DNA of 64,000 nt from Symbiobacterium thermophilum IAM 14863. Its GTDB lineage: Bacteria; Bacillota; Sulfobacillia; Symbiobacteriales; Symbiobacteriaceae. Of this stretch, positions 9,522 through 47,860 are shown one piece after another; within the stretch, counting starts at the first letter, position 1, and each line of letters opens with the position of its first letter. The notes beneath the pieces were generated by a model, which was not told the DNA's origin, ran no database searches, and worked only from the letters and a program-made list of their open reading frames with translations. A program made the position numbers and the translations under genes. The stretch lies in contig NC_006177.1 of assembly GCF_000009905.1 (NCBI RefSeq), positions 868,001-932,000 of the forward strand. The letters run 5' to 3'.

Positions 9522-10649
9522 ATGCGCATCGCGCTGGTCTGCACCGAAAAGCTGCCGGTGCCTCCGGTGCGGGGCGGGGCGATCCAGACCTATATCGACG
9601 GGGTGCTGCCCTACCTCGCGGCCCGGCATGACGTCACGGTGGTGGGCCGGGCCGACCCGGCCCTGCCGCCGGCAGAAGAGGCGGGGGGCGCCCGGTTCGT
9701 GCGGGTGGCCGCCGACGACGGCCCGGAGGCATACGCCGACCGGGTCGCCGCTTTCCTGGCGGCGGAGCGGTGGGACGCGGTGGAGGTCTTCAACCGGCCG
9801 GCCTTCGTCGAACGCATCGCCCGGGCCGCCCCCGGCGCCCGGCTCATCCTCTCGCTGCACAACGCGATGCTGGCTCCGGACCGGATCGACCCCGCCCGCG
9901 CCCGGCGCATCCTCGGGATGGTGGACCGGGTGGTGACCATCAGCGACTTCATCCGGCGCACGGCCGTCCGGATCTACCCCGAGTTCGCCGCCAAGTTCCG
10001 CACGATCTACTCCGGGGTGGACCTGGACCGGTTCCGCCCGGGCCCCTGCCCGGCCGCCGCAGCCCTGCGGGCGGCCCTGGGCATCGGGGGGCGCACAGTG
10101 GTCCTCTCCGTCAGCCGGCTCTCGCCCAAGAAAGGCGTCCACCTGCTGCTGGAGGCGATGGCGCACGTGGCCCGGACCCACCCGGGGGCGGTGCTGGTGC
10201 AGGTGGGATCCCGCTGGTACGGCCGGAACGACCCGGACGACTACGTGCGGGACCTGGCGCGGCGGGCGGCGGAACTGGGGGACGCGGTGCGCATGGCGGG
10301 CTACGTGCCCTACGGGGAGGTGGACGGCTACTTCCGCATGGCCGACGTCTTCGTCTGCGCCTCCCAGTGGGAGGAGCCCCTGGCCCGGGTGCACTACGAG
10401 GCCATGGCCTGCGGGCTGCCGATCGTGACCACCGACCGGGGCGGAAACGCCGAGGTCGTGGCGGAAGGGCGCGGCGGGCTGATCGTGCGGCCCCACGACC
10501 GGCCCGAGGCCTTCGCCGCCGCCATCCGGACGCTGCTGGACGACCCTGCGCTCCGGCGGCGGATGGGCGCCGAGAACCGGCGGCTGGCCGAGGCCCGGTT
10601 CGGCTGGGACCGGGTGGCGGCCGAACTGCTGGCGGTACTGGAGGGATGA
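9522..10649 (+). CDS. CotSA-like GT4 glycosyltransferase (copy 2)
   Basis: 375 residues, clearly a tandem duplicate of the preceding gene: CTEKLPVPPVRGGAIQTYIDGV, LILSLHNAMLAPDRI, FRTIYSGVDLDRFRPG, SVSRLSPKKGVHLLLEAM, SQWEEPLARVHYEAMACGLPIVTTDRGGNAEVV and EARFGWDRVAAELLAVL all have close counterparts in copy 1. The GT4 residues (KK of SPKKG, E-x7-E) are kept in both, so both should be active. Differences concentrate in the N-terminal acceptor half, suggesting two different acceptors or linkages. ATG start; the epimerase gene follows after 3 bp. Confidence 0.85.
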   Translation: MRIALVCTEKLPVPPVRGGAIQTYIDGVLPYLAARHDVTVVGRADPALPPAEEAGGARFVRVAADDGPEAYADRVAAFLAAERWDAVEVFNRPAFVERIARAAPGARLILSLHNAMLAPDRIDPARARRILGMVDRVVTISDFIRRTAVRIYPEFAAKFRTIYSGVDLDRFRPGPCPAAAALRAALGIGGRTVVLSVSRLSPKKGVHLLLEAMAHVARTHPGAVLVQVGSRWYGRNDPDDYVRDLARRAAELGDAVRMAGYVPYGEVDGYFRMADVFVCASQWEEPLARVHYEAMACGLPIVTTDRGGNAEVVAEGRGGLIVRPHDRPEAFAAAIRTLLDDPALRRRMGAENRRLAEARFGWDRVAAELLAVLEG

Positions 10650-10652
10650 AGG

Positions 10653-11531
10653 GTGGCGCGGTTTCTCGTGACCGGCGCGGCCGGGTTCATTGGATCGCAC
10701 CTGGTGGAGGCGCTCCGCGCGGCGGGGCACGACGTGGTCGGGGTCGACCGGCGGCCCGGGGCGGACGTGGTGGGCGACCTGCTCACGCTGGACCTGGCGC
10801 CGCTCCTGGACGGCGTCGAGTACGTGGTGCACCTCGCCGGGCAGCCCGGCGTGCGGGAGAGCTGGAGCCAGTTTCCCGCCTACCTGGCGGGAAACCTGCA
10901 GACCACCCAGCGGCTGCTGGAGTCCCTCCGGGACCGGCCCCTGAAGAAGTTCGTCCTCGCGTCCACGTCCTCGGTGTACGGCGAGGTGCCGATGCCGGCC
11001 CGGGAGGACGGGCCGGCCATGCCGGTCTCGCCCTACGGCCTCACCAAGCTGGCGGCGGAGAAGCTGTGCGACCTGTACGGCCGCACCGCCGGGATTCCAT
11101 GGGTCGCGCTGCGCTACTTCACCGTCTACGGTCCCCGCCAGCGGCCGGACATGGCGTTCAGCCGCTGGTTCAACGCCGCGCTGGACGGCGAACCCATCCA
11201 GATCTACGGCGACGGCAGCCAGCTCCGGGACTTCACCTACGTGGCCGACGCGGTGACCGCCACCCAGCGGGCGGCGCTGAACCCGGTGGTGGGGGTGCCC
11301 ATCAACGTGGGCGGCGGCAGCGCGGTCACGGTGCGGGAGGCGATCCGGCTGATCGCCGCCATCACCGGCCGGCCGATCCGGATCCGGCAGCTGCCCCCGG
11401 CCCCGGGCGACATGCGGGAGACCCGTGCCGACACGGAGCGGCTCTGGCGGGAGGTGGGCTTTCGGCCCTCCACCCCCCTGGAGGAGGGGCTCTGGCAGCA
11501 GTATCGTTGGCACCTGGCGCAGCGGGCGTGA
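10653..11531 (+). CDS. NAD-dependent sugar epimerase/dehydratase (UDP-glucose or UDP-glucuronate 4-epimerase type)
   Basis: 292 residues, extended SDR. N-terminal FLVTGAAGFIGSHLVEAL binds NAD (GxxGxxG). Catalytic residues: Ser/Thr in LASTSSVYGE and Tyr/Lys in SPYGLTKLAAEKL. Substrate-side motifs are RYFTVYGPRQRPDMAFSRW and YGDGSQLRDFTYVAD. It begins with GTG after GGAGGG and ends the coat polysaccharide operon. A UDP-glucose dehydrogenase at 14401 suggests UDP-glucuronate as a possible substrate, but the sequence alone does not distinguish this from UDP-glucose or dTDP-sugars. Confidence 0.8.
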   Translation: MARFLVTGAAGFIGSHLVEALRAAGHDVVGVDRRPGADVVGDLLTLDLAPLLDGVEYVVHLAGQPGVRESWSQFPAYLAGNLQTTQRLLESLRDRPLKKFVLASTSSVYGEVPMPAREDGPAMPVSPYGLTKLAAEKLCDLYGRTAGIPWVALRYFTVYGPRQRPDMAFSRWFNAALDGEPIQIYGDGSQLRDFTYVADAVTATQRAALNPVVGVPINVGGGSAVTVREAIRLIAAITGRPIRIRQLPPAPGDMRETRADTERLWREVGFRPSTPLEEGLWQQYRWHLAQRA

Positions 11532-11559
11532 CGGGGCGCGCCCGCTGCGCCGGTCTCGC

Positions 11560-11593
11560 GCGGGCCGGCCGGGTGCCTGGCCGCCCGGCCCGC
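11560..11593 (+). terminator. GC-rich hairpin at end of the glycosylation operon
   Basis: 9-bp stem, GCGGGCCGG (11560-11568) with CCGGCCCGC (11585-11593). No T tract follows, so it may only be an attenuating hairpin. Confidence 0.35.
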
Positions 11594-11618
11594 CGTGGAG
11601 CAGATCGGGGCGGCCCGG

Positions 11619-11626
11619 CATAGGTT
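11619..11626 (+). promoter_or_regulatory. Sporulation-type -10 motif upstream of second CotE-like gene
   Basis: GGCATAGGTTGA with the CATAnnnT core at 11619-11626, 33 bp before the start codon, similar to the motifs at 5378, 5940, 13705 and 15734 (minus). Confidence 0.45.
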
Positions 11627-11659
11627 GAGGTGAGAACATCGCCCTGAGGAGGATGGCCC

Positions 11660-12505
11660 TTGTCCAGCATTCGGCTGCAGGAGATCATGACCCGTGCCGT
11701 GGTGGGCCGGTGTGACCGGCGGGTCGTCTGGACGCACACGGCGCCCGCCGACGGCGCGGACTGCGTTCTCGGGGTCCACGTCGGCAACGCGCAACTGACT
11801 GTCGAACCGGGCCCGTCCGGGCCGGAGGTGCGCCTGACCGCCGTCTGCGAGGTCTGGTGCGGGGCTGGCGACGGAACCCGGGTCGAGCGCATCACGTGTA
11901 CACATACAGAGCCCGCAGACGTGCCCCTGGTGGCCCGGGTGGTCGGGGAGACCGAGACCACCGGCCGCCTGCTGCGGGGCGCCCGCTGCCTGGAGGCGGA
12001 GGTGCGCGAGGGACTGTTCCACCTGACCATCGAGATGCATATCGCCCTGGAGGCGGTGGGCACGGCCCGGCTCTGGGTGAAGGCCTTTGACCTGGAGGAG
12101 GAAGGGGCCGCGGACCTGGACGCCTTCGGCTCGGGTACCAGCGACTCGTCCCAGAGCGTCGAGGAGCCGGTCGCCGACTGGGAGGGGCAGACCGAGGCGG
12201 AGACGTGGGCGGAGCCCGAAACCTGGGCTGAGCCGGAGGAGTGGACCGGGACGGCGCCGGATGGGGAGCCGGAGGAAGGCACCGAACGGGCAGGGAAGGC
12301 GGAAGGCCAGGCGGACCCGGAGCCGGAACCGCTGGCGGAGCCGGAGCCACCTTCGCAGGCGGACGGCGAGCCGGTGGCCTGGGACGCATTCCGGACCGAC
12401 ATGGCGGCCGTGGCCTCTGTGCAGGACCGGGAGTCCCGCCGCACCAGCACCGCCGTCACCCGGTTCCGGGGGCCGACCAGCGCCCGGATCACCATCATCC
12501 AGTAG
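11660..12505 (+). CDS. CotE-like outer spore coat protein with acidic Glu/Pro/Trp-rich tail (paralog 2)
   Basis: 281 residues from TTG 11660 (GAGGAGG upstream). Residues 1 to about 150 carry the CotE pattern: LQEIMTRAVVGRCDRR, WTHTAPADGADCVLGVHVGN, VCEVWCGAGDGTRVE, ARCLEAEV, FHLTIEMHIALEAVGTARLWVKAF. CotE normally ends in a short acidic tail. Here it is expanded into about 110 residues with repeats such as ETWAEPETWAEPEEW and PEPEPLAEPEPP, then a basic end RTSTAVTRFRGPTSARITIIQ. That fits a scaffold that recruits other coat proteins, but the recruitment role is inferred. Own candidate mother-cell promoter. Convergent with cotH. Confidence 0.72.
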   Translation: MSSIRLQEIMTRAVVGRCDRRVVWTHTAPADGADCVLGVHVGNAQLTVEPGPSGPEVRLTAVCEVWCGAGDGTRVERITCTHTEPADVPLVARVVGETETTGRLLRGARCLEAEVREGLFHLTIEMHIALEAVGTARLWVKAFDLEEEGAADLDAFGSGTSDSSQSVEEPVADWEGQTEAETWAEPETWAEPEEWTGTAPDGEPEEGTERAGKAEGQADPEPEPLAEPEPPSQADGEPVAWDAFRTDMAAVASVQDRESRRTSTAVTRFRGPTSARITIIQ

Positions 12506-12512
12506 CCGTCGG

Positions 12513-12571
12513 GGGGCTATCCCCGTCATCGCGGATGACCCGATTCATCCGGGATGACGGCGGGTAGCCCC
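12513..12571. terminator. Bidirectional terminator between CotE-like gene and cotH
   Basis: Long imperfect inverted repeat: GGGGCTATCCCCGTCATC (12513-12530) against GATGACGGCGGGTAGCCCC (12553-12571), with an inner GGATGA/TCATCC pairing. It sits between two convergent stop codons. Confidence 0.7.
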
Positions 12572-12588: not shown

Positions 12589-13653
12589 TCACAGGGAGGC
12601 CAGCTCCCGGAGCAGCACGGCCCGCCGTTCGACCGCCCAGCGGCGCAGCCGCTCGACCTCCCGGGGGAAGTCGGCACGGCGCAGGTACGGATCCCGCTCC
12701 CGCCAGGGCTCCACCTGGGAGGCCAGCCGGTCGATGAGCGGCAGCACGCTGTCCGGGGCCAGCGGCCCGTCCAGGGCGCGAAGGAAGGCCCGGCGGAAGC
12801 GGCGGCGCCCTTCCGGGTGCGCGAAGAGCCGGTAGGAGAGCTTGTTCCAGCCGGTCACCGGCACCCGGTCCAGGCGGGCGGGCCGCCCGTGGATGTCGAT
12901 GCCCCAGGTGGCGTCGTAATCCCACGGGATGATGCGGAACCGGCGCTCGCCAGGCTCCAGGTAAAGGGCGTAGTTGTGCACGAAGCCGTCGCGGTTGCCG
13001 ACGAAGACCGCGCCGATCACCCAGTGGACGTACCGCTCCAGGTCGAACCACCGGGCGGCCGCCTGCAGGAACGACGCGTCGTCCGCCAGGTTCAGGTCCA
13101 GGAGCATCTGCCGGATCGGCTCCGTGTCGGCGCCCTCCACCGGGTGGTAGCCCCTGTCCAGGGGCTCCTTCAGCGTGCGGGTGAAGGGACTGATCAGGCC
13201 GAAGTTGGCGTTCCGGTTGATCGCGTAAAAGATCGGCCCGGGGGGCCAGCCCCGGCGCAGGCAGAAGTCCCGGTCCACCGACTCGAGTCCGACGTACAGG
13301 CCGGCCGGCTCGCCGCTGACGGTGGGCAGCACGTGCCGCCACCGGGGCGCGTCCACGCCCAGCAGCGGGAAGAGGGTATAGGACAGTGCCGAGCGCATGA
13401 GGGTAGGGTCGACGAAGTCGGCGTTGAGGTGGATGCGCTGCACGGTGTGGCCGGCCGGGGGCTCGTCGGGCAGGCGCGCTCCGCGCAGGGTCACCTGCAG
13501 GGACCGCTTGGGGAACTTGCGGGAGTGTGCGCCGCGGATGCGCACGGAGACCGGCAGCTCCGGCCCGTGGTTCCAGCGGAGCGTGCCGGTCAGGCTTCCC
13601 TCTGCCAGCCGGGGCCACGGGTCCGGCCCCAGAGCAAGATCGCAGAAATCCAT
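12589..13653 (-). CDS. cotH: CotH-like spore coat protein kinase
   Basis: 354 residues from ATG 13653. CotH kinase fold: VSVRIRGAHSRKFPKRSLQVTL (the RG..S...KKS region, with the ATP-binding Lys), HLNADFVDPTLMRSALSYTLF, ESVDRDFCLRRGW, VFVGNRDGFVHNYALYLEPGERRFRIIPWDYDATWG (catalytic and metal Asp residues, normally GNxDxxxxNxx and DxDxxxG). CotH phosphorylates coat proteins such as CotB and CotG on serines. The divergent gene encodes a Ser/Gly/Asp-rich protein that is an attractive target; that pairing is inference. No signal peptide, consistent with action in the mother cell. Confidence 0.88.
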   Translation of the reverse strand: MDFCDLALGPDPWPRLAEGSLTGTLRWNHGPELPVSVRIRGAHSRKFPKRSLQVTLRGARLPDEPPAGHTVQRIHLNADFVDPTLMRSALSYTLFPLLGVDAPRWRHVLPTVSGEPAGLYVGLESVDRDFCLRRGWPPGPIFYAINRNANFGLISPFTRTLKEPLDRGYHPVEGADTEPIRQMLLDLNLADDASFLQAAARWFDLERYVHWVIGAVFVGNRDGFVHNYALYLEPGERRFRIIPWDYDATWGIDIHGRPARLDRVPVTGWNKLSYRLFAHPEGRRRFRRAFLRALDGPLAPDSVLPLIDRLASQVEPWRERDPYLRRADFPREVERLRRWAVERRAVLLRELASL

Positions 13654-13704
13654 GGGTTCACATCCTCGCTGGGGTGAGCTAGGTGACGTAACGCGGCGCG
13701 CTGG

Positions 13705-13712
13705 CATAAGAT
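13705..13712 (+). promoter_or_regulatory. Sporulation-type -10 motif before the Gly/Ser/Asp-rich gene
   Basis: CATAAGATGGA starts here. The same 11 bases occur on the minus strand upstream of the UDP-glucose dehydrogenase (15724-15734). The start codon is 52 bp downstream. Candidate AC -35 elements lie 13 and 18 bp upstream. Confidence 0.5.
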
Positions 13713-13764
13713 GGACCGTCAGGTCGCAGCAGGGACCGTACGACTGCGGTGGAGGGATGCGAAC

Positions 13765-14265
13765 GTGGCTCAGTCCGGGGACCTGATGGCGCGTCTCTTG
13801 AACCTGGTGCAAGAAGAGAAGCGGGATATGGAATCACTCTATGCGGAAGAGCCGGTTCGGGCGCACCTGCTGCAGGCGACCGGCGATGATGGCTCCGGCG
13901 ACGGCAGCGGTTCCGGCGACGGGTCCGGCGGGGGCTCGGGCGACGGCAGCGGTTCCGGCGACGGGTCGGGCTCCGGTGATGGATCCGGCGCCGACGACGC
14001 CGACGCGGCCATGACCGGCGGCGGCTCCGGCGGCGACGAAGCGGACGCCGACGGCTCCGGCGCGGACGCAGGCTCGGGCGGCGAGGACGGGTCCGGCGAC
14101 GAGGGCGTCGACGCGACGATGACCGACGACGGCTCCGGCGCGGACGCGGGCTCGGGCGGCGAGGACGGGTCCGGCGACGAGGGCGTCGACGCGACGATGA
14201 CCGGCGGCGGCTCCGGCGGCGATGCCGACGGTGCCGACGATGATAGCTTCGGCAGCGGGATGTAG
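13765..14265 (+). CDS. Gly/Ser/Asp-repeat protein, probable spore coat structural component
   Basis: 166 residues from GTG 13765 (GGAGGG upstream). A normal-composition head (MAQSGDLMARLLNLVQEEKR then DMESLYAEEPVRAHLLQA) of about 40 residues is followed by low-complexity acidic sequence built of GDGSGSGDGSG units and two copies of a 26-residue block (DGSGADAGSGGEDGSGDEGV and DATMT). It ends DDDSFGSGM. Divergent from cotH, in a coat locus, with a sporulation-type -10 motif. Such Ser-rich repeats resemble CotH substrates in general character, though CotB/CotG are basic while this is acidic. No database family recognised. Confidence 0.7.
   Translation: MAQSGDLMARLLNLVQEEKRDMESLYAEEPVRAHLLQATGDDGSGDGSGSGDGSGGGSGDGSGSGDGSGSGDGSGADDADAAMTGGGSGGDEADADGSGADAGSGGEDGSGDEGVDATMTDDGSGADAGSGGEDGSGDEGVDATMTGGGSGGDADGADDDSFGSGM
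14050..14205 (+). repeat. Tandem 78-bp duplication inside the Gly/Ser/Asp-rich gene
   Basis: Two adjacent copies (14050-14127 and 14128-14205) starting GACGGCTCCGGCGCGGACGC. I see a single synonymous difference (GCA/GCG) apart from the final bases. Such exact repeats tend to expand or contract. Confidence 0.85.
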
Positions 14266-14285
14266 CGACGTTGCGCATAAGGAAA

Positions 14286-14342
14286 GGGGCTGTCCGGCAG
14301 ATCATCTGCGATGACGCCGGGGCAGCCCCGTTTGCCTGTTTG
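14286..14342 (+). terminator. Terminator of the Gly/Ser/Asp-rich gene
   Basis: GGGGCTG (14286-14292) pairs with CAGCCCC (14323-14329), with an inner CCGGC/GCCGG, followed by GTTTGCCTGTTT. Confidence 0.65.
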
Positions 14343-14349
14343 CCGGCCG

Positions 14350-14374
14350 GGCGGGCCCCGGACCGGGGCCCGCC
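14350..14374. terminator. Near-palindromic hairpin between convergent genes
   Basis: GGCGGGCCCCGG and CCGGGGCCCGCC around a single A: a 12-bp perfect inverted repeat. It lies 26 bp past the UDP-glucose dehydrogenase stop, so probably its terminator on the minus strand. Confidence 0.55.
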
Positions 14375-14400
14375 GCCGGCGGCGGTACACATGCCCGTGG

Positions 14401-15696
14401 TCAGCGGCCCCTGCGCCCCACGCCCCGGTATCGCAGCCCGGCGGCGGCCATGGATGCGGGGTCGAAGAGGTTGCGGGCGTCCACCACCAGATCGCCCGCG
14501 AGAGCGGACCGGATCTCCTCCGGCGGGGCGGCCGCATATTCGGGCCACTCCGTCAGCACCAGCAGCGCGTCGGCGCCCCGGATCGCCTCCCAGGGATCGT
14601 CGACCAGCTCCAGCCCCGCCGGCAGACCCTGCGCCTGACCCGCGGCCAGGGCCGCCGCGAAGTTGCCCCGCGCCTGCGGGTCGTGGGCCAGGACCCGGGC
14701 GCCCTGGGCCAGGAGCGCGGGGACGATCGCCAGGGCAGGGGACTCCCGGACGTCGTCGGTGCCGGCCTTGAAGGCCAGGCCCCAGACGGCGATGCGCCGC
14801 CCGGCCGCCGGTTCCAGCATGGCCAGCACCCGCTCCCGCTGCCGGAGGTTGGCCCGGCGGGCCGCGGGCAGGAGGTCCAGCCGCACACGCCTGCGCCGGG
14901 CGGTCCAGAGCAGGGCGGCCAGGTCCTTGGGCAGGCAGGAGCCCCCGTACCCGGGGCCCGGATGGAGGAAGTGGCCGCCGATGCGCCGGTCCAGCCCCAC
15001 GCCTTTCAGCACGGCCAGGCCGTCGGCGCCCAGGGCGTCGGCCAGGGCGGCGACCTCGTTGGCAAAGGAGAGCTTCACCGCCAGGAACGCGTTGCTGGCG
15101 TACTTGATGAGTTCGGCCTCCTCCCACCCGGTGGTCACCAGGGGCGCGTCGATGCCCCGGTAGAGGTCGGCGACCTGCCGGGCCGCCGGGGCGGATTCGG
15201 CGCCCACCACGATCCGGTCGGGGTGGAAGAAGTCGTGGATGGCGGTGCCCTCCCGCAGGAACTCGGGATTGGAGACCACCGCAAAGCCCGCGCCCAGCCG
15301 GCCCTGTGCGCGGCGGTTGGTGCCGGGCGGAACGGTCGATTTCAGCACGACGGTCAGGGGTTCTGCCGGGCGGCGCACCCGCAGGTCGTCCAGCAGCCTC
15401 CACAGCGCCTGCAGGTCGGGAGCGCCGGAGGAGGACGGCGGGGTGCCGACGCAGACGATGATCATCCCGGCACGGCGAATGGCCTCGTCCAGTGACGTGG
15501 TCACCGTCAGCGACCGGCCCAGGTGGCGTCGGAGCAGCCGGTCCATCCCCGGTTCGTAGAAGGGGCATTCGCCCCGCCGCAGTCGGGCGACCCTTTCACC
15601 ATCGATCTCCAGAAGCGCGACTTCGTGTCCCAGTTCGCAGAGGCAGGCGGCCGTGGTGAGTCCCACGTAGCCTGCGCCGGCTACGGCGATGGGCAA
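14401..15696 (-). CDS. ugd: UDP-glucose 6-dehydrogenase
   Basis: 431 residues, full length. N-terminal Rossmann motif MPIAVAGAGYVGLTTAACLCELGHEV binds NAD. NPEFLREGTAIHDFFHPDRIVVG contains the catalytic region, and GPGYGGSCLPKDLAALL holds the catalytic Cys. The C-terminal UDP-binding domain has VWGLAFKAGTDDVRESPAL. It oxidises UDP-glucose to UDP-glucuronate, supplying an acidic sugar for the spore polysaccharide locus and perhaps the epimerase at 10653. The gene stands alone with a candidate sporulation promoter 31 bp upstream. Confidence 0.93.
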   Translation of the reverse strand: MPIAVAGAGYVGLTTAACLCELGHEVALLEIDGERVARLRRGECPFYEPGMDRLLRRHLGRSLTVTTSLDEAIRRAGMIIVCVGTPPSSSGAPDLQALWRLLDDLRVRRPAEPLTVVLKSTVPPGTNRRAQGRLGAGFAVVSNPEFLREGTAIHDFFHPDRIVVGAESAPAARQVADLYRGIDAPLVTTGWEEAELIKYASNAFLAVKLSFANEVAALADALGADGLAVLKGVGLDRRIGGHFLHPGPGYGGSCLPKDLAALLWTARRRRVRLDLLPAARRANLRQRERVLAMLEPAAGRRIAVWGLAFKAGTDDVRESPALAIVPALLAQGARVLAHDPQARGNFAAALAAGQAQGLPAGLELVDDPWEAIRGADALLVLTEWPEYAAAPPEEIRSALAGDLVVDARNLFDPASMAAAGLRYRGVGRRGR

Positions 15697-42101: not shown

Positions 42102-42105
42102 CTAG

Positions 42106-43632
42106 GAGCCTGTCTGAGTAAGCCAGTTCTGTAGGAGCGAAAGGGTTGGGTGTCCAATGTCTTCATCATGAGCAAGAAGACGTATCGACCGTATCAGCCC
42201 AATCAGCTGTTGCTGCTGCCCCCTGCCCTGCAGGACTGGCTTCCGCATGACCATTTCGCTTATTTCCTGAGTGATGTCGTGGACTCACTCGATCTAAGCC
42301 AAATCGAACGGACATACGAGCGAGAGCTGCGAGGTTACCCACCGTACCATCCGCGGATGATGGTCAAGGTGCTGCTGTACGCCTACTGCAACGGCGTCTA
42401 CTCCTCTCGCAAGATCGAACGCCGGCTGCAGGAGGACGTAGCCTTCCGCGTCCTTGCGGCCAACAACCAGCCCGACTTCCGGACGATCAGCGATTTCCGG
42501 AAGCGGCATCTAAAGGCCCTCTCCGACCTGTTCCTGCAAGTGGTCAAGATCTGCAAGAAGGCCGGGCTGGTTCGCCTGGGTCATGTGGCCCTGGACGGCA
42601 CCAAGATCAAGGCCAACGCCTCCAAGCACAAGGCGATGAGCTACAGCCGGATGGTGGAGGAAGAACAACGCCTGAAGGCGGAGATCGCAGAGCTGCTCCA
42701 GAAAGCCGAGCAAGCTGACCAGGCCGAGGATCACCGCTTCGGCCCACATCGTCGTGGGGATGAACTGCCCGAAGAACTCCGCTTCCGTGAGCGGCGGCTG
42801 GCCAAGATTCAAGAAGCCAAGGCTGCTCTGGAAGCCGAAGCGCGCCTGAGGGCCGGCGCTGACGAACATGAGCCTCCCGAGGAGCCGGGACCCAAGGGGC
42901 CCAAGGGCGGTCGTCGGCGGAAGCGGCCGAAGGCAGAACCCGCACCAACAGCGCAGCGCAACTTTACGGATCCCGATTCCCGGATCATGAAAGGCTCTGA
43001 CAAGCAGTTCATCCAGGGGTACAACGCCCAGGCCGTCGTCGATGCCGATACGCAGATTGTCGTCGCTGCTGCCGTAACAAACCAGGCGGCAGATGCTCCG
43101 CACTTGATCCCCATGATGGAGCAGGTCGAAACCAATGTCGATGAGATGCCGGAGGAGGTTTCTGCCGATGCAGGGTACTTCAGTGAGCAAAACGTTCAGT
43201 GGCTCTTGCAGCGGCGAATCAATCCCTACATTCCTCCGGAGAAGCAGCGGCACAGCGAACGTCGCCGTGCGAAATCACCACGCGGCCCGATTCCCAAGGG
43301 AGCAACGCTTCGGGATCGGATGCGGCGGAAACTGCAGCTAAAGCGACACGCCGAGCGCTACCGAAAGCGAGAGCAGAGCATTGAGCCGGTCTTCGGGCAG
43401 ATCAAGGAGGCTCGTGGTTTCCGGCAGTTCCATCTCCGTGGACTGGAAGCAGTCAACGGGGAATGGCTTCTTGTGTGCCTTTGCCACAATCTCTTGAAGC
43501 TCTACGCCTTCAGCCAGGCCGCATAGGCCCGAAATCTGCCTTCAGACAGCGCATGAAGAAGTAGGCACGATCGTTGATATCCAATCATTGGGAGTCTGCC
43601 CCTATCTCACGTGCGGTTACCCGGACAGGCTC
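42106..43632 (+). mobile_element. IS1182-like insertion sequence, 1527 bp
   Basis: Left end GAGCCTGTCTGAGTAAGC; right end, read inward, GAGCCTGTCCGGGTAACC: terminal inverted repeats of about 18 bp with 3 mismatches. CTAG flanks both sides (42102-42105 and 43633-43636), a 4-bp target duplication or palindromic target site. One complete transposase gene. GC is lower than the chromosome. The element appears intact and potentially mobile. Confidence 0.85.
42150..43526 (+). CDS. IS1182-family DDE transposase
   Basis: 458 residues. The N-terminal conserved block KKTYRPYQPNQLLLLPPALQ, then DWLPHDHFAYFLSDVVD and RELRGYPPYHPRMMVKVLLYAYCNGVYSSRKIERRL, is typical of IS1182 (ISL3/IS5-superfamily relatives). 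Catalytic residues are suggested by GHVALDGTKIKANASKHKAMS (Asp), QAVVDADTQIVVAAAVTNQAADAPHLIPM / EVSADAGYFSEQNV (Asp) and EQSIEPVFGQIKEARGFRQFHLRG (Glu). A charged linker (170-270, EPPEEPGPKGPKGGRRRKRPK) interrupts the fold. GTG 42150 or ATG 42168 may be the start. Probably active: no stop or frame break. Confidence 0.92.
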   Translation: MSNVFIMSKKTYRPYQPNQLLLLPPALQDWLPHDHFAYFLSDVVDSLDLSQIERTYERELRGYPPYHPRMMVKVLLYAYCNGVYSSRKIERRLQEDVAFRVLAANNQPDFRTISDFRKRHLKALSDLFLQVVKICKKAGLVRLGHVALDGTKIKANASKHKAMSYSRMVEEEQRLKAEIAELLQKAEQADQAEDHRFGPHRRGDELPEELRFRERRLAKIQEAKAALEAEARLRAGADEHEPPEEPGPKGPKGGRRRKRPKAEPAPTAQRNFTDPDSRIMKGSDKQFIQGYNAQAVVDADTQIVVAAAVTNQAADAPHLIPMMEQVETNVDEMPEEVSADAGYFSEQNVQWLLQRRINPYIPPEKQRHSERRRAKSPRGPIPKGATLRDRMRRKLQLKRHAERYRKREQSIEPVFGQIKEARGFRQFHLRGLEAVNGEWLLVCLCHNLLKLYAFSQAA

Positions 43633-43659
43633 CTAGACTGATCCCAAACCGGCTGGGGC

Positions 43660-43993: not shown

Positions 43994-44551
43994 ATGCAGT
44001 CTCCAGAGGGCCTTCACAAGAGTGGTGAGAACTTCGTTTTGGCCACAAAACGGTATCTTGAGGCCACACTTGTTATTGACGTGTTGTGGACGGTTTATGA
44101 CGGTAACGGCATGACGGTGTTACGAGGGTTAGATGGGCAACCCCACACGTTCGATGCGCTGGCACGTCTGAAGGAAGGCGAAAAGCGACCGATCTACATA
44201 GAGGCTAAGAAACGCACTAGCGCCAATATTAACGCTGAATACGATGATTTCATAGCAAAATCCTTCAGTTGCTACATGGCAGAGAGGTGGAGACCAGATT
44301 GGAACCCTTATTTTATGTTCGTCACCGATCATCCGTTTAAGATGAAAGACTACGCAAGGTTGCTGGAAGCAGATTATCTCCTTACATTTTTGGGTACTTT
44401 CGAAAAGTATGGAATTGCTAATGCAGCATTGGAACATGTGGTCGACTTCAAGGATAGAGTTTGGCTCGTGATATGGTCTAACCGGCAAGAGCTAATGTGT
44501 GTCACGAATCCAGCCTTGTATCAGAAGCTAGTGGTGGATGGGGGGGGCTAA
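43994..44551 (+). CDS. Putative PD-(D/E)XK-fold nuclease, first gene of an AT-richer pair
   Basis: 185 residues, not recognised as a named family. The pattern fits a restriction-endonuclease fold: helix 1 with Glu12 (HKSGENFVLATKRYLEATLV), Asp54 (QPHTFDALARLKEG) and Glu70-Ala-Lys72 in EKRPIYIEAKKRTSANI, i.e. the D...ExK arrangement, followed by alternating strands (YFMFVTDHPFKMKDY, DRVWLVIWSNRQELMCV). GC drops to roughly half here against about 70 percent around, a sign of transfer. The only good ribosome site (AAGGGAGAG) is 13 nt before ATG 43994, so the start is uncertain. Its stop lies in a G8 tract overlapping the next gene. Confidence 0.6.
   Translation: MQSPEGLHKSGENFVLATKRYLEATLVIDVLWTVYDGNGMTVLRGLDGQPHTFDALARLKEGEKRPIYIEAKKRTSANINAEYDDFIAKSFSCYMAERWRPDWNPYFMFVTDHPFKMKDYARLLEADYLLTFLGTFEKYGIANAALEHVVDFKDRVWLVIWSNRQELMCVTNPALYQKLVVDGGG
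44540..44547 (+). repeat. G8 homopolymer at the junction of the two island genes
   Basis: Eight Gs directly before CTAAG. The first gene reads GAT-GGG-GGG-GGC-TAA through it; with seven Gs the frame would be GAT-GGG-GGG-GCT-AAG-ATG and continue in frame into the second gene. It is therefore a potential slippage or phase-variation site, or a sequencing-length error in one long gene. Confidence 0.7.
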
Positions 44552-44552
44552 G

Positions 44553-46220
44553 ATGACCACTACCTTTCTAGAGTTGTACAGAACGTTACAAGAGAAGGAC
44601 CCTTGGCAAGCGGTCCACTCCATCCAGGCGTACGTGATGCGTGCACTAGCGTGGGCTTTCTCTGATCGGCTTGAGGCAACCGGAGCATTTCAGCACACAT
44701 TTCTGCCAGATTACATGGTTCATCTACAACCTGGTCCAAAGCTCGCAGTTCACCTGCGATTTAGTGAGGTATCAGCATTGGCTTTAGCGCAAAGTATGCC
44801 GACTAAGAGTAGGCACGTAAAGCACGTTATCTTGGTAAACACACTTCCCGATCACCTAGTTGAAGACAGAAAAAACGATACAGAGTACAAGCGGCGCAAT
44901 GTACTGGTCACCTCATTTGATATTATAGACCAAATAATCAGAGTAGTGGAACTAGTGGAGGAACATGGTCCATACTCGACTACCCTGAGAATCAGAAACC
45001 TGCAGCGAGAGTTAGTACGCTGGTTCTTAGATTCGTACGGATGGAGGCCAGCCCCAAGACTGGAAGATTTCATCCGCCATCAACCTGTCGAGCCCCGTAG
45101 AACTCTCAGGTTACGGTCGACGCCAGTCACGGTCTGGGTACAGAGACATCCAGATGGTTATGCTGCATACCGCTATCTTCGGGACTCCACCAGTCTAGGA
45201 GTCCGTTCCATTCAGAAGCGGTCCTTCAAGGAAATGGGGCGGGGAGCAAGCTTTAGCCGAGTTAACCGCATTAGGGATGTGGCTAAGCCAACAGTTCTTC
45301 TTACGTGGACGGACCAAAGGGTGCACATCCCGGTGTTGGCTTGCACATTCACAAGACATGCGCCGATGGGACAGAATGCATTCCAAATTCTTCCACAGGC
45401 GGTAGCCTGTGCAGAAATCGGCACCCCATTTATCTTAGTCGCTCCGGAGAAGGCGCCCGTCAGAAGGATGACCGGTGAGGTGACTGTTGAAAAAGCCCAT
45501 CCTCTATTGTACCAGGCACTGACTAGGATGATGCATATATATCGGATCCCGATCCTGATGCTTCCCTGGCCCACCGATGACGATCTGAACGGATTACCCA
45601 CACTCCGTTGCGACAGACGATATCCGTCCCTACCTGATCGGGCTACAAGCGCCATTCAGTTACTCTTCCGCTGCGTTGACTTCGTGTTGGAGGGGCATTC
45701 GTACACATCTGCTGTATCTAACCTGCTAGGATACTATGGGGTGTCACGGAGAAGGCTTGAGATGGAAGAGGCCCGGTTCCGTCTAGGCATGAGGGCCATT
45801 CAAGAGCCTCCTCGAAACAGCGGGCTTCTGTTGCACACAGGAGACACCCTGAGTTATATCCGTGAGACAACAGGGGTGCGAAACGCAAGAATCCCATTTG
45901 CACTAAGACACCGGCCCACAACGGTCGTGTTCACAACTAGGTCTAAGAGCCTTCGTGCTGATCCGTATCTAGGTACACTTCTGGCTTTTGACTTCGCGTT
46001 CTGCAGGACAGGTCCGAGCGTTGTAGATCGGTCGAGCAATCTGTTTGCCCAGTTCCAGGACGTTCACTTAGATGAGGCGTTGACACAACTGTTTGAAAAC
46101 GCGAAACTCGAACAGCCTCGCTTCAACCGAAATGCACTGTTCTTGCAGTATGCAGACGCACTAATCTTTAAGGATGGTATGGTTACGAAGCGTGGCGATA
46201 AGTGGGTTGTCTATCGGTGA
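44553..46220 (+). CDS. Second protein of the AT-richer pair, unknown, possibly a nuclease-fold relative
   Basis: 555 residues from ATG 44553 (GGGGGGG upstream), or 560 from ATG 44538. No named family recognised. The N-terminal 150 residues follow a degenerate restriction-fold order: FLPDYMVHLQPGPKLAVHLRFSE (PD, but HLR where ExK would be), HVKHVILVNTLPDHL, VLVTSFDIIDQIIRVVELV. The middle has VHIPVLACTFTRHAPMGQN and VACAEIGTPFILVAPEKAPV; the end has LRADPYLGTLLAFDFAFCRTGPSVVDRSSNLFAQF. No membrane segments. Low GC like its partner. Co-transcribed and possibly fused by slippage with the nuclease-like gene, next to an IS: the setting of a defence or selfish module. Confidence 0.6.
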   Translation: MTTTFLELYRTLQEKDPWQAVHSIQAYVMRALAWAFSDRLEATGAFQHTFLPDYMVHLQPGPKLAVHLRFSEVSALALAQSMPTKSRHVKHVILVNTLPDHLVEDRKNDTEYKRRNVLVTSFDIIDQIIRVVELVEEHGPYSTTLRIRNLQRELVRWFLDSYGWRPAPRLEDFIRHQPVEPRRTLRLRSTPVTVWVQRHPDGYAAYRYLRDSTSLGVRSIQKRSFKEMGRGASFSRVNRIRDVAKPTVLLTWTDQRVHIPVLACTFTRHAPMGQNAFQILPQAVACAEIGTPFILVAPEKAPVRRMTGEVTVEKAHPLLYQALTRMMHIYRIPILMLPWPTDDDLNGLPTLRCDRRYPSLPDRATSAIQLLFRCVDFVLEGHSYTSAVSNLLGYYGVSRRRLEMEEARFRLGMRAIQEPPRNSGLLLHTGDTLSYIRETTGVRNARIPFALRHRPTTVVFTTRSKSLRADPYLGTLLAFDFAFCRTGPSVVDRSSNLFAQFQDVHLDEALTQLFENAKLEQPRFNRNALFLQYADALIFKDGMVTKRGDKWVVYR

Positions 46221-46281: not shown

Positions 46282-47070
46282 TCACATGTTGCCCCGCACC
46301 CACTCCCGCCAGTCCTCGCCAATCAGCCCCTGCGCCCGGGCGCCGGCCATCGCCCGCCCGCAGCTGCAGCTTCGCCGGACCGGGGCCAGCTGCGCGGCCC
46401 GCTCCAGAACAGCCAGTACGTCTGCCTGCGCCTCCCTGACCACCGTCAGCGCGGCGTAGCACAGCTCCAGCTCCCGGGCGAGAAACGCCTCCGGCACCAG
46501 CCCGGAACCGACGACGTCCGCGCCCCAGGCGCGGTACATCCGCCGCTCGGCCGGCGTCGCCTCCCGGGATCCGTCCAGCCCCACGTACGTCGCCCCCCGG
46601 AACGCCCGGGGGGTCTTTTCGCGCCCCGCGGCATACAAGGCCGCCGACAGCTCCGGGCAGAACGGCGGGTCGAGCCGGATGAACCCGTAGCCCTTCCCCA
46701 CGAAGAAGGTCGGGGGGAGCAGGCGGGTGAGGTCGATCACGTCCACCGGGACGACCAGGTCGCCCGGCTCCAGGAGGGGGCTGACCGGTTCGACCCGCGC
46801 CGCGGCCAGAACGGCGGACGCGCCCGCCGCCTTGGCTGCGTAGATCAGGGCCCGGGGGTCGGCCTCCGCCGTCCGCATGAGCACGGGGCCCCGCTGTTCC
46901 ACCTTCCCGTAGGGCGTCTCGTGCAGGATCAGCCGGTCGAAGTCACCGGTCCCGGAATACGCGGTCTCGGGAGCCCCGGTCCCGGGGTGCCGGAGCCCGG
47001 GGTGCCCAGCGCCAGGTGAACCTACCCCGGCGGCCATCGCCTCCGGCAGGATGAACAGCACCTCACCCAT
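46282..47070 (-). CDS. Divergent MTAP/purine nucleoside phosphorylase-family protein
   Basis: 262 residues from ATG 47070 (GGAGG upstream; ATG 47076 also possible). It aligns with its upstream neighbour and with methylthioadenosine phosphorylase: DFDRLILHETPYGKVEQRGPVLMRTAEADPRALIYAAKAAGASAVLAAARV, then WGADVVGSGLVPEAFLARELELCYAALTVV. Key motifs are worn: the N-terminal GGSG phosphate loop is replaced by a Gly/Pro-rich stretch (GVGSPGAGHPGLRHPGTGAP), EGPRFETPAE reads DGSREATPAE, and VVGMT reads VVGSG. It may have a changed substrate or be a non-catalytic partner. It overlaps the preceding gene by 8 bp. Confidence 0.72.
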   Translation of the reverse strand: MGEVLFILPEAMAAGVGSPGAGHPGLRHPGTGAPETAYSGTGDFDRLILHETPYGKVEQRGPVLMRTAEADPRALIYAAKAAGASAVLAAARVEPVSPLLEPGDLVVPVDVIDLTRLLPPTFFVGKGYGFIRLDPPFCPELSAALYAAGREKTPRAFRGATYVGLDGSREATPAERRMYRAWGADVVGSGLVPEAFLARELELCYAALTVVREAQADVLAVLERAAQLAPVRRSCSCGRAMAGARAQGLIGEDWREWVRGNM

Positions 47071-47860
47071 ATGCATTCGCCTCCTCCTCCAGCAGCCGCA
47101 GCATGATCCGGAACATTAGCTGTCCCACCTCCGGCCCGAACAGCCGCTGCTCCGGGCCGTCGAAGGGCACGCCCGTCGCGTAATTGGACACCCAGCAGAT
47201 CGACCCGTAGGCCATCCCCAGCTCCCGGGCCAGGAAGACCTCCGGTGCGAGGGTCATGCCCACCAGCTCGGCCCCCGCCTGGGCCAGGAGGGCGATCTCC
47301 GCCCGGGTCTCCAGCCGGGCGCCCTCGGTGGCGGCGTAGACGGCCCTTGGCGCGGCCCGGTGACCGCAGGCCGCGGCCGCCTGCACCAGCCGGGCGCGCA
47401 GGTCCGGGTCGAACAGCCCGGCGTATGCGGGCCCGGTGGCATGTCCGGCGGGCGGTGCCGGATGGCGCACCACCGTATCGCGCACCGCCGGATCACGCGC
47501 CGCCGCCCCGAAGCTGTCCGGCCGTCGCCGGGTCCAGTCGATCAGGTCCGACACCACCGCCAGGCTCCCCGGCGGCAGCGCGCGCACCATCGAGCCGGCG
47601 CTGTTCCAGCTCAGTACCCGCCGGGCGCCCAGCGCGCGGGCCGCCCACACGTTGGCCCGGTAGTTAATGAAGGGCGGCGTGACCCCCAGTCGCCCCTCGC
47701 CGCCGTGCCGGCTGAGGAAGGCGACCGGCCGCCCTGCCACCGCGAAGATCCGGAACGGTCCGGCCGGGCCGAAGGGGGTCTCCACGGTCCGCTCCGTCCA
47801 GCCCGGGTCGAACTGCAGGTGGTACGCCGCCGTACCCCCGATGATGACCGTATCGACCAT
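47063..47860 (-). CDS. MTAP/purine nucleoside phosphorylase-family enzyme
   Basis: 265 residues. VDTVIIGGTAAYHLQ (phosphate loop, GGSG-like), VAFLSRHGGEGRLGVTPPFINYRANVWAARALGARRVLSWNSAGSM and VYAATEGARLETRAEIALLAQAGAELVGMTLAPEVFLARELGMAYGSICWVSNYATG are the MTAP/PNP family blocks in order. It should phosphorolyse a 5'-modified adenosine (methylthioadenosine, 5'-deoxyadenosine, or perhaps aminodeoxyfutalosine). It lies directly after the MtnA-like isomerase that would take its sugar phosphate product, and divergent to menaquinone genes whose radical SAM chemistry makes 5'-deoxyadenosine. Confidence 0.82.
   Translation of the reverse strand: MVDTVIIGGTAAYHLQFDPGWTERTVETPFGPAGPFRIFAVAGRPVAFLSRHGGEGRLGVTPPFINYRANVWAARALGARRVLSWNSAGSMVRALPPGSLAVVSDLIDWTRRRPDSFGAAARDPAVRDTVVRHPAPPAGHATGPAYAGLFDPDLRARLVQAAAACGHRAAPRAVYAATEGARLETRAEIALLAQAGAELVGMTLAPEVFLARELGMAYGSICWVSNYATGVPFDGPEQRLFGPEVGQLMFRIMLRLLEEEANAYG

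Follow-up and report, generated by a model that had tools for sequence, protein, structure and literature searches.

What does a compact pair of AT-richer genes encode in the GC-rich chromosome of Symbiobacterium thermophilum, and are the two genes read as separate proteins or, as an earlier note on this DNA proposed, alternately as two chains and as one? The pair, here termed A and B, lies in a stretch of 64,000 nucleotides (hereafter the window), which covers 868001-932000 of a single 3,566,135-base contig and in which the following features are relevant.

42102-43636, + strand: insertion sequence with 20-bp inverted ends and a DDE transposase gene at 42150-43526 (Pfam DDE_Tnp_1); outside the module
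43994-44551, + strand: gene A (P0001), 185 aa; intact ORF; PD-(D/E)XK-type nuclease candidate (D54, E70-x-K72)
44540-44547, + strand: G8 tract, 5 nt before the ATG of B; likely the Shine-Dalgarno region of B
44553-46220, + strand: gene B (P0002), 555 aa; intact ORF starting at ATG 44553; comes after A in all intact relatives
44571-44921, + strand: B residues 7-123, N-terminal domain common to Actinomycetota B proteins (profile match, 8.4 bits)
45744-46106, + strand: C-terminal part of B (residues about 398-518), with a related ORF in genome G076 (tblastn E 6e-10)

An AT-rich gene pair at a variable site

The two open reading frames and their AT-richer composition, as first described, are borne out. 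The GC content is 0.471 for A and 0.512 for B, with a GC3 of 0.53 for the pair; the native neighbours have a GC content of 0.68-0.74 and a GC3 of 0.90-0.96, and the chromosome is 69% GC. Such foreign composition supports the view that the pair was horizontally acquired. For B, an alternative ATG at position 44538 would extend the protein to 560 aa.

The pair is flanked by the insertion sequence on one side and by a metabolic gene on the other, and in the S. thermophilum genome it stands alone, outside any defence island. The bordering insertion sequence is 1.5 kb long and is present in seven further copies in the genome, two of which are partial. On the other side, the adjoining minus-strand genes (46282-47860), which read as methylthioadenosine-phosphorylase-like, are kept in the congeners, as found by blastn comparison of synteny. 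In the case of congener G398, a GC-rich gene, apparently an ABC-type permease, lies between these minus-strand genes and a large regulator gene, with no AT-rich insert. In congener G399, the same bordering genes are adjoined by a different AT-rich hypothetical gene (L036 4249-5187, 312 aa) that has no match in Pfam or PADLOC scans. Gene A itself has no match in 20 relatives, two congeners among them. A-B belongs to the accessory DNA, and what occupies its site varies from one species to another.

A candidate nuclease and its partner

Both genes pass as hypothetical proteins in the annotation, because the models of Pfam, NCBIfam, PADLOC (2023) and PHROGs recognise neither. Direct scans of these collections and of PDB sequences returned chance-level matches only, for instance to TauD (E 0.059) and DpnII (E 0.05), and no description of the pair was found in the titles and abstracts listed by literature searches.

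For the product of A, a PD-(D/E)XK pattern had been proposed with Glu12, Asp54 and Glu70-x-Lys72 as its elements. In an alignment of seven diverse homologues, D54 and E70-x-K72 are invariant, whereas Glu12 varies. The full set of invariant residues is E5, G11, K19, L22, E23, T25, G48, D54, E70, K72, A88, Y94, A96, F107, M108, P114 and Q165, with K19, L22 and E23 carried on the N-terminal helix. Against a profile from which it was left out, the window protein reaches 75 bits, and no other ORF of the window exceeds 2 bits.

Structure prediction, which had been suggested as a check, gives moderate support for the fold of A and weak support for that of B. The AlphaFold model of A, built from four sequences, is of low confidence (pLDDT 52) and contains helices at residues 4-23 and 79-97 and strands at 67-72 and 106-111 in an order that fits the PD-(D/E)XK fold, with the first hairpin unresolved. 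By VIA-align, the five best matches of this model are to Avs3 (Z 6.7), LmuA (Z 5.4 and 5.0) and HerA-DUF4297 (Z 5.2 and 5.0), all at a Z below 8 and hence short of proof, while XisH, Bse634I and EcoO109I follow at lower Z, mixed among unrelated folds; all six we take to be of PD-(D/E)XK type. Because motif and fold stand together, A is likely to be a PD-(D/E)XK nuclease and would be expected to cut DNA.

The assignment of B is a more delicate matter. A family profile of Actinomycetota B proteins matches the window protein at residues 7-123 only, and homology to other B proteins past residue about 125 is not supported. The score of 8.4 bits is reached by none of 3000 shuffles (the best scoring 4.6) and approached by no other ORF of the window, none of which exceeds 0.5; though weak by database standards, it is a fair single test, as the only location in question is the gene after A. 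P52-D53 is retained throughout the seven aligned B proteins, in all of which the site matching the E-x-K of A is [HYF]-x-R (HLR in the window protein), so the motif part of the suggestion that B begins with an inactive nuclease-like domain stands. The evidence for the fold is weaker. B yielded a poor model (pLDDT 40), although its low-confidence N-terminus has a helix at 17-35, strands at 40-43, 53-57 and 65-70, a helix at 75-81 and a strand at 89-95, which is the order expected for the PD-(D/E)XK fold; in a fold search many unrelated folds outrank the few nucleases, which do not rise above noise, and hhalign detects no match between the profiles of A and B. A candidate pseudo-nuclease is a reasonable reading of the B N-terminus from its motif and model, and the two proteins would fit a nuclease/pseudo-nuclease pair.

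The remainder of B is of a different character. About 120 residues of its C-terminal part are common to an ORF of a single genome, G076 (tblastn E 6e-10, reverse search 4e-7), and the block LRADPYLGTLLAFDFAFCRTG, which the earlier note had singled out as conserved-looking, does recur elsewhere, as RGDPYPGALAALDYLLCREG in locus L002. Next to the G076 ORF lie a PD-(D/E)XK-looking ORF and a C5 methyltransferase in truncated form (Pfam E 3e-53), and the locus is, as far as its sequence can be read, a decaying restriction-modification-like locus. In the same genome (L038 223-2279, the same DNA as in L002), the PD-(D/E)XK-looking ORF has a likely frame break, and a dnaB-like gene adjoins. In another relative, L015, the B protein ends in TPRs. 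When two Streptomyces pairs are compared, omega is 0.09 for A and 0.23 for B, indicating purifying selection; in a second comparison, L008 against L014, B also diverges faster than A (dN of 0.395 versus 0.145). The C-terminal part of B varies, as a recognition module would be expected to.

Relatives on plasmids and viral contigs

A tblastn search of plasmids with A led to Arthrobacter and from there to Streptomyces plasmids, and profile scans added three viral contigs, so that the search for the pair in other genomes, which had been proposed earlier, did find it on plasmids and viral contigs, often near restriction or defence-type genes. In every intact relative (L007, L008, L009, L011, L014, L015 and L016) a gene of 470-640 aa follows A and overlaps or abuts it. 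Other copies are worn: B is split by a frame break in L010, A is truncated in L012, and only the C-terminal part of B is left in L013. Such wear is what would be expected of accessory genes. By comparison, tblastn with B alone against plasmids and phages returned nothing, scans of the genome collection gave no relative of either window protein, and the collection of phage genomes that was searched does not contain the pair. Weak genome matches (L003, L005 and L006) lie within unrelated genes and were rejected as chance.

Defence-type neighbours were counted within about 10 kb of the pair, a count that has no matched background rate for plasmid or phage genes; mobile elements are rich in defence-type genes. 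For instance, the pair is accompanied by a type ISP/IIG enzyme in L007 (PADLOC E 8e-277), by a type I HsdR and S subunit in L008, and by an OLD/GajA-like ATPase-TOPRIM protein and an HNH effector-like protein in L009, whereas an Mrr nuclease (Mrr_cat) lies near the truncated A of L012. On the viral contig L015, a convergent HsdR-like type I gene is found about 75 bp from the B gene with the TPR extension (10591-12516). This context supports a role in defence without proving it: the pair is conserved in mobile surroundings that are often rich in defence genes, and the defensive role is read from those surroundings.

Two further arrangements deserve mention. On a Streptomyces plasmid, TniQ-, TnsA- and Mu-transposase-like genes (L011 4333-9803) lie directly upstream of A-B, and the pair may there be the cargo of a Tn7-like element. 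In L009, 0.6 kb past A-B, the HNH effector-like gene is followed by two overlapping hypothetical genes with no Pfam match (12647-15485), possibly another defence operon.

Known systems and rival explanations

Several known systems resemble the pair in part. The closest structural matches of A are of Cap4/DUF4297 type (HerA-DUF4297, LmuA and the Avs3 N-terminus), which are likewise anti-phage nuclease effectors. Unlike these, A is a stand-alone protein of 185 aa, and no DUF4297/Cap4 profile matches it in Pfam, PADLOC or NCBIfam, or its homologues in Pfam or PADLOC; in addition, unlike the partners in HerA-DUF4297, Lamassu and Avs systems, B has no HerA, SMC, SAVED or STAND domain by Pfam scan. 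XisH of the XisH/XisI system is a small protein of a predicted fold similar to that of A, and Foldseek with A ranks an fdxN excision factor first and XisH third, at an E of only 0.05-0.08. XisI is small, unlike B proteins of 480-640 aa, and neither A nor B matches the Pfam profiles of XisH or XisI. GmrSD type IV and heterodimeric type II enzymes are, like A-B, two-protein nuclease systems, and the L002 ORF related to the C-terminus of B has a weak, sub-threshold match to GmrSD_C (E 0.045); unlike two-chain restriction enzymes, the window proteins have no GmrSD, McrBC or type II family match. Finally, Mrr-type nucleases share with A a helix followed by a D...ExK core, but A and its homologues lack an Mrr_cat match.

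Such likenesses leave several explanations to be weighed against a module directed at invaders. If A-B were a restriction enzyme, A would cut and B would directly recognise a sequence or a modified base, in the manner of a type IV system or of a type II system whose methyltransferase is encoded elsewhere or is unneeded. This is rather unlikely. In its favour, the ORF that resembles the C-terminal part of B adjoins a truncated C5 methyltransferase, restriction genes occur close to several relatives, and there are sub-threshold matches to DpnII (E 0.05), to a type II enzyme (E 0.031) and to GmrSD_C; but these weak matches are at chance level, no methyltransferase is found among the ORFs adjoining A-B in the window, and the restriction neighbours of the relatives differ in type. 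A toxin-antitoxin system, in which A would be a toxic DNase that B neutralises, so that plasmids or prophages are maintained, would explain why plasmids and phage contigs carry the two genes in coupled form. It is nevertheless improbable, given that B, at 480-640 aa, is long for an antitoxin and variable at its C-terminus, that the likely nuclease is encoded first, and that of the two genes L013 has kept just the end of B, and L012 a truncated A alone. Similarly low is the probability that the pair processes DNA for its carrying element, in replication, excision or recombination, as XisH-type excision factors would. The weak Foldseek matches point in this direction, as does the position of the pair in phage contigs, between replication-type and HNH/packaging-type genes; against it, the carriers are very different, the window chromosome has no such element around the pair, no XisI-like partner is present, and the searched phage genomes lack the pair.

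The junction of A and B bears on a fourth explanation, namely that the locus is one ordinary gene with a true G7, encoding a single A-B fusion of 740 residues that appears split through sequencing error or slippage. The G8 tract is real and is the only one in the window. Dinucleotide-preserving shuffles of these 64 kb give 25.4 on average, and the whole genome of 3.57 Mb holds about 13 runs of at least eight G, which are thus strongly under-represented genome-wide. Deletion of one G brings A into the frame of B and fuses the two, as had been stated, and long G runs are error-prone; addition of one G changes the end of A from GGG* to GGGLR* and keeps the start of B. The one-gene explanation is very improbable, however, as all relatives have two genes, each with its own start and stop, and the window B has its own ATG right after the stop codon of A. 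The view that the locus is normally one fused gene is accordingly rejected, the relatives' junctions containing neither a fused A-B nor such a G tract. As for the proposal that the tract is a phase switch, the homologues are all two genes, the tract occupies the expected Shine-Dalgarno position of B, and slippage would switch neither protein off. Phase variation of A-B through G8 is therefore unsupported, although slippage at the tract could, judging from the frames, yield a fused minority product.

The explanation preferred here, and held to be reasonably probable from the sequence comparisons, is that A-B is a mobile two-component module against invaders, consisting of nuclease A and a controlling partner B. 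In such a module, the small PD-(D/E)XK nuclease A would act as the effector that cuts DNA, and B would pair with it by way of its N-terminus, a domain of the same general type stripped of the catalytic Glu and Lys. The fast-evolving, exchangeable C-terminal part of B would recognise the invader, either as a DNA feature or as a phage product, and recognition would license A to cut, the outcome being the exclusion of a phage or plasmid. The direct binding of A to B, the nuclease fold of the B N-terminus and the sensing role of B are presumed in this scheme. In its overall interpretation the earlier note is upheld for the nuclease motif of A and the PD without ExK of B, and the conserved, mobile pair adds support, but it is not upheld for the G8 fusion switch.

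Because the pair is conserved across phyla and recurs on plasmids and phages of distant bacteria, often near anti-phage genes, it is probably a defence system, uncatalogued but of the known kind in which a nuclease effector is joined by a controlling partner. A fuller version is more tentative and stands as a possibility on the doubtful side: an undescribed two-component defence family of Actinomycetota plasmids and phages and of one distant Gram-positive chromosome, in which a PD-(D/E)XK nuclease would be gated by a pseudo-nuclease whose C-terminal sensors are exchangeable, one being common to a restriction-modification-like locus, and in which the G8 tract would occasionally fuse the chains. 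If active, the pair would add an uncatalogued nuclease/pseudo-nuclease defence module to those of Actinomycetota plasmids and phages, and would offer a simple case for studying the possible control of an active nuclease domain by an inactive nuclease-like one.
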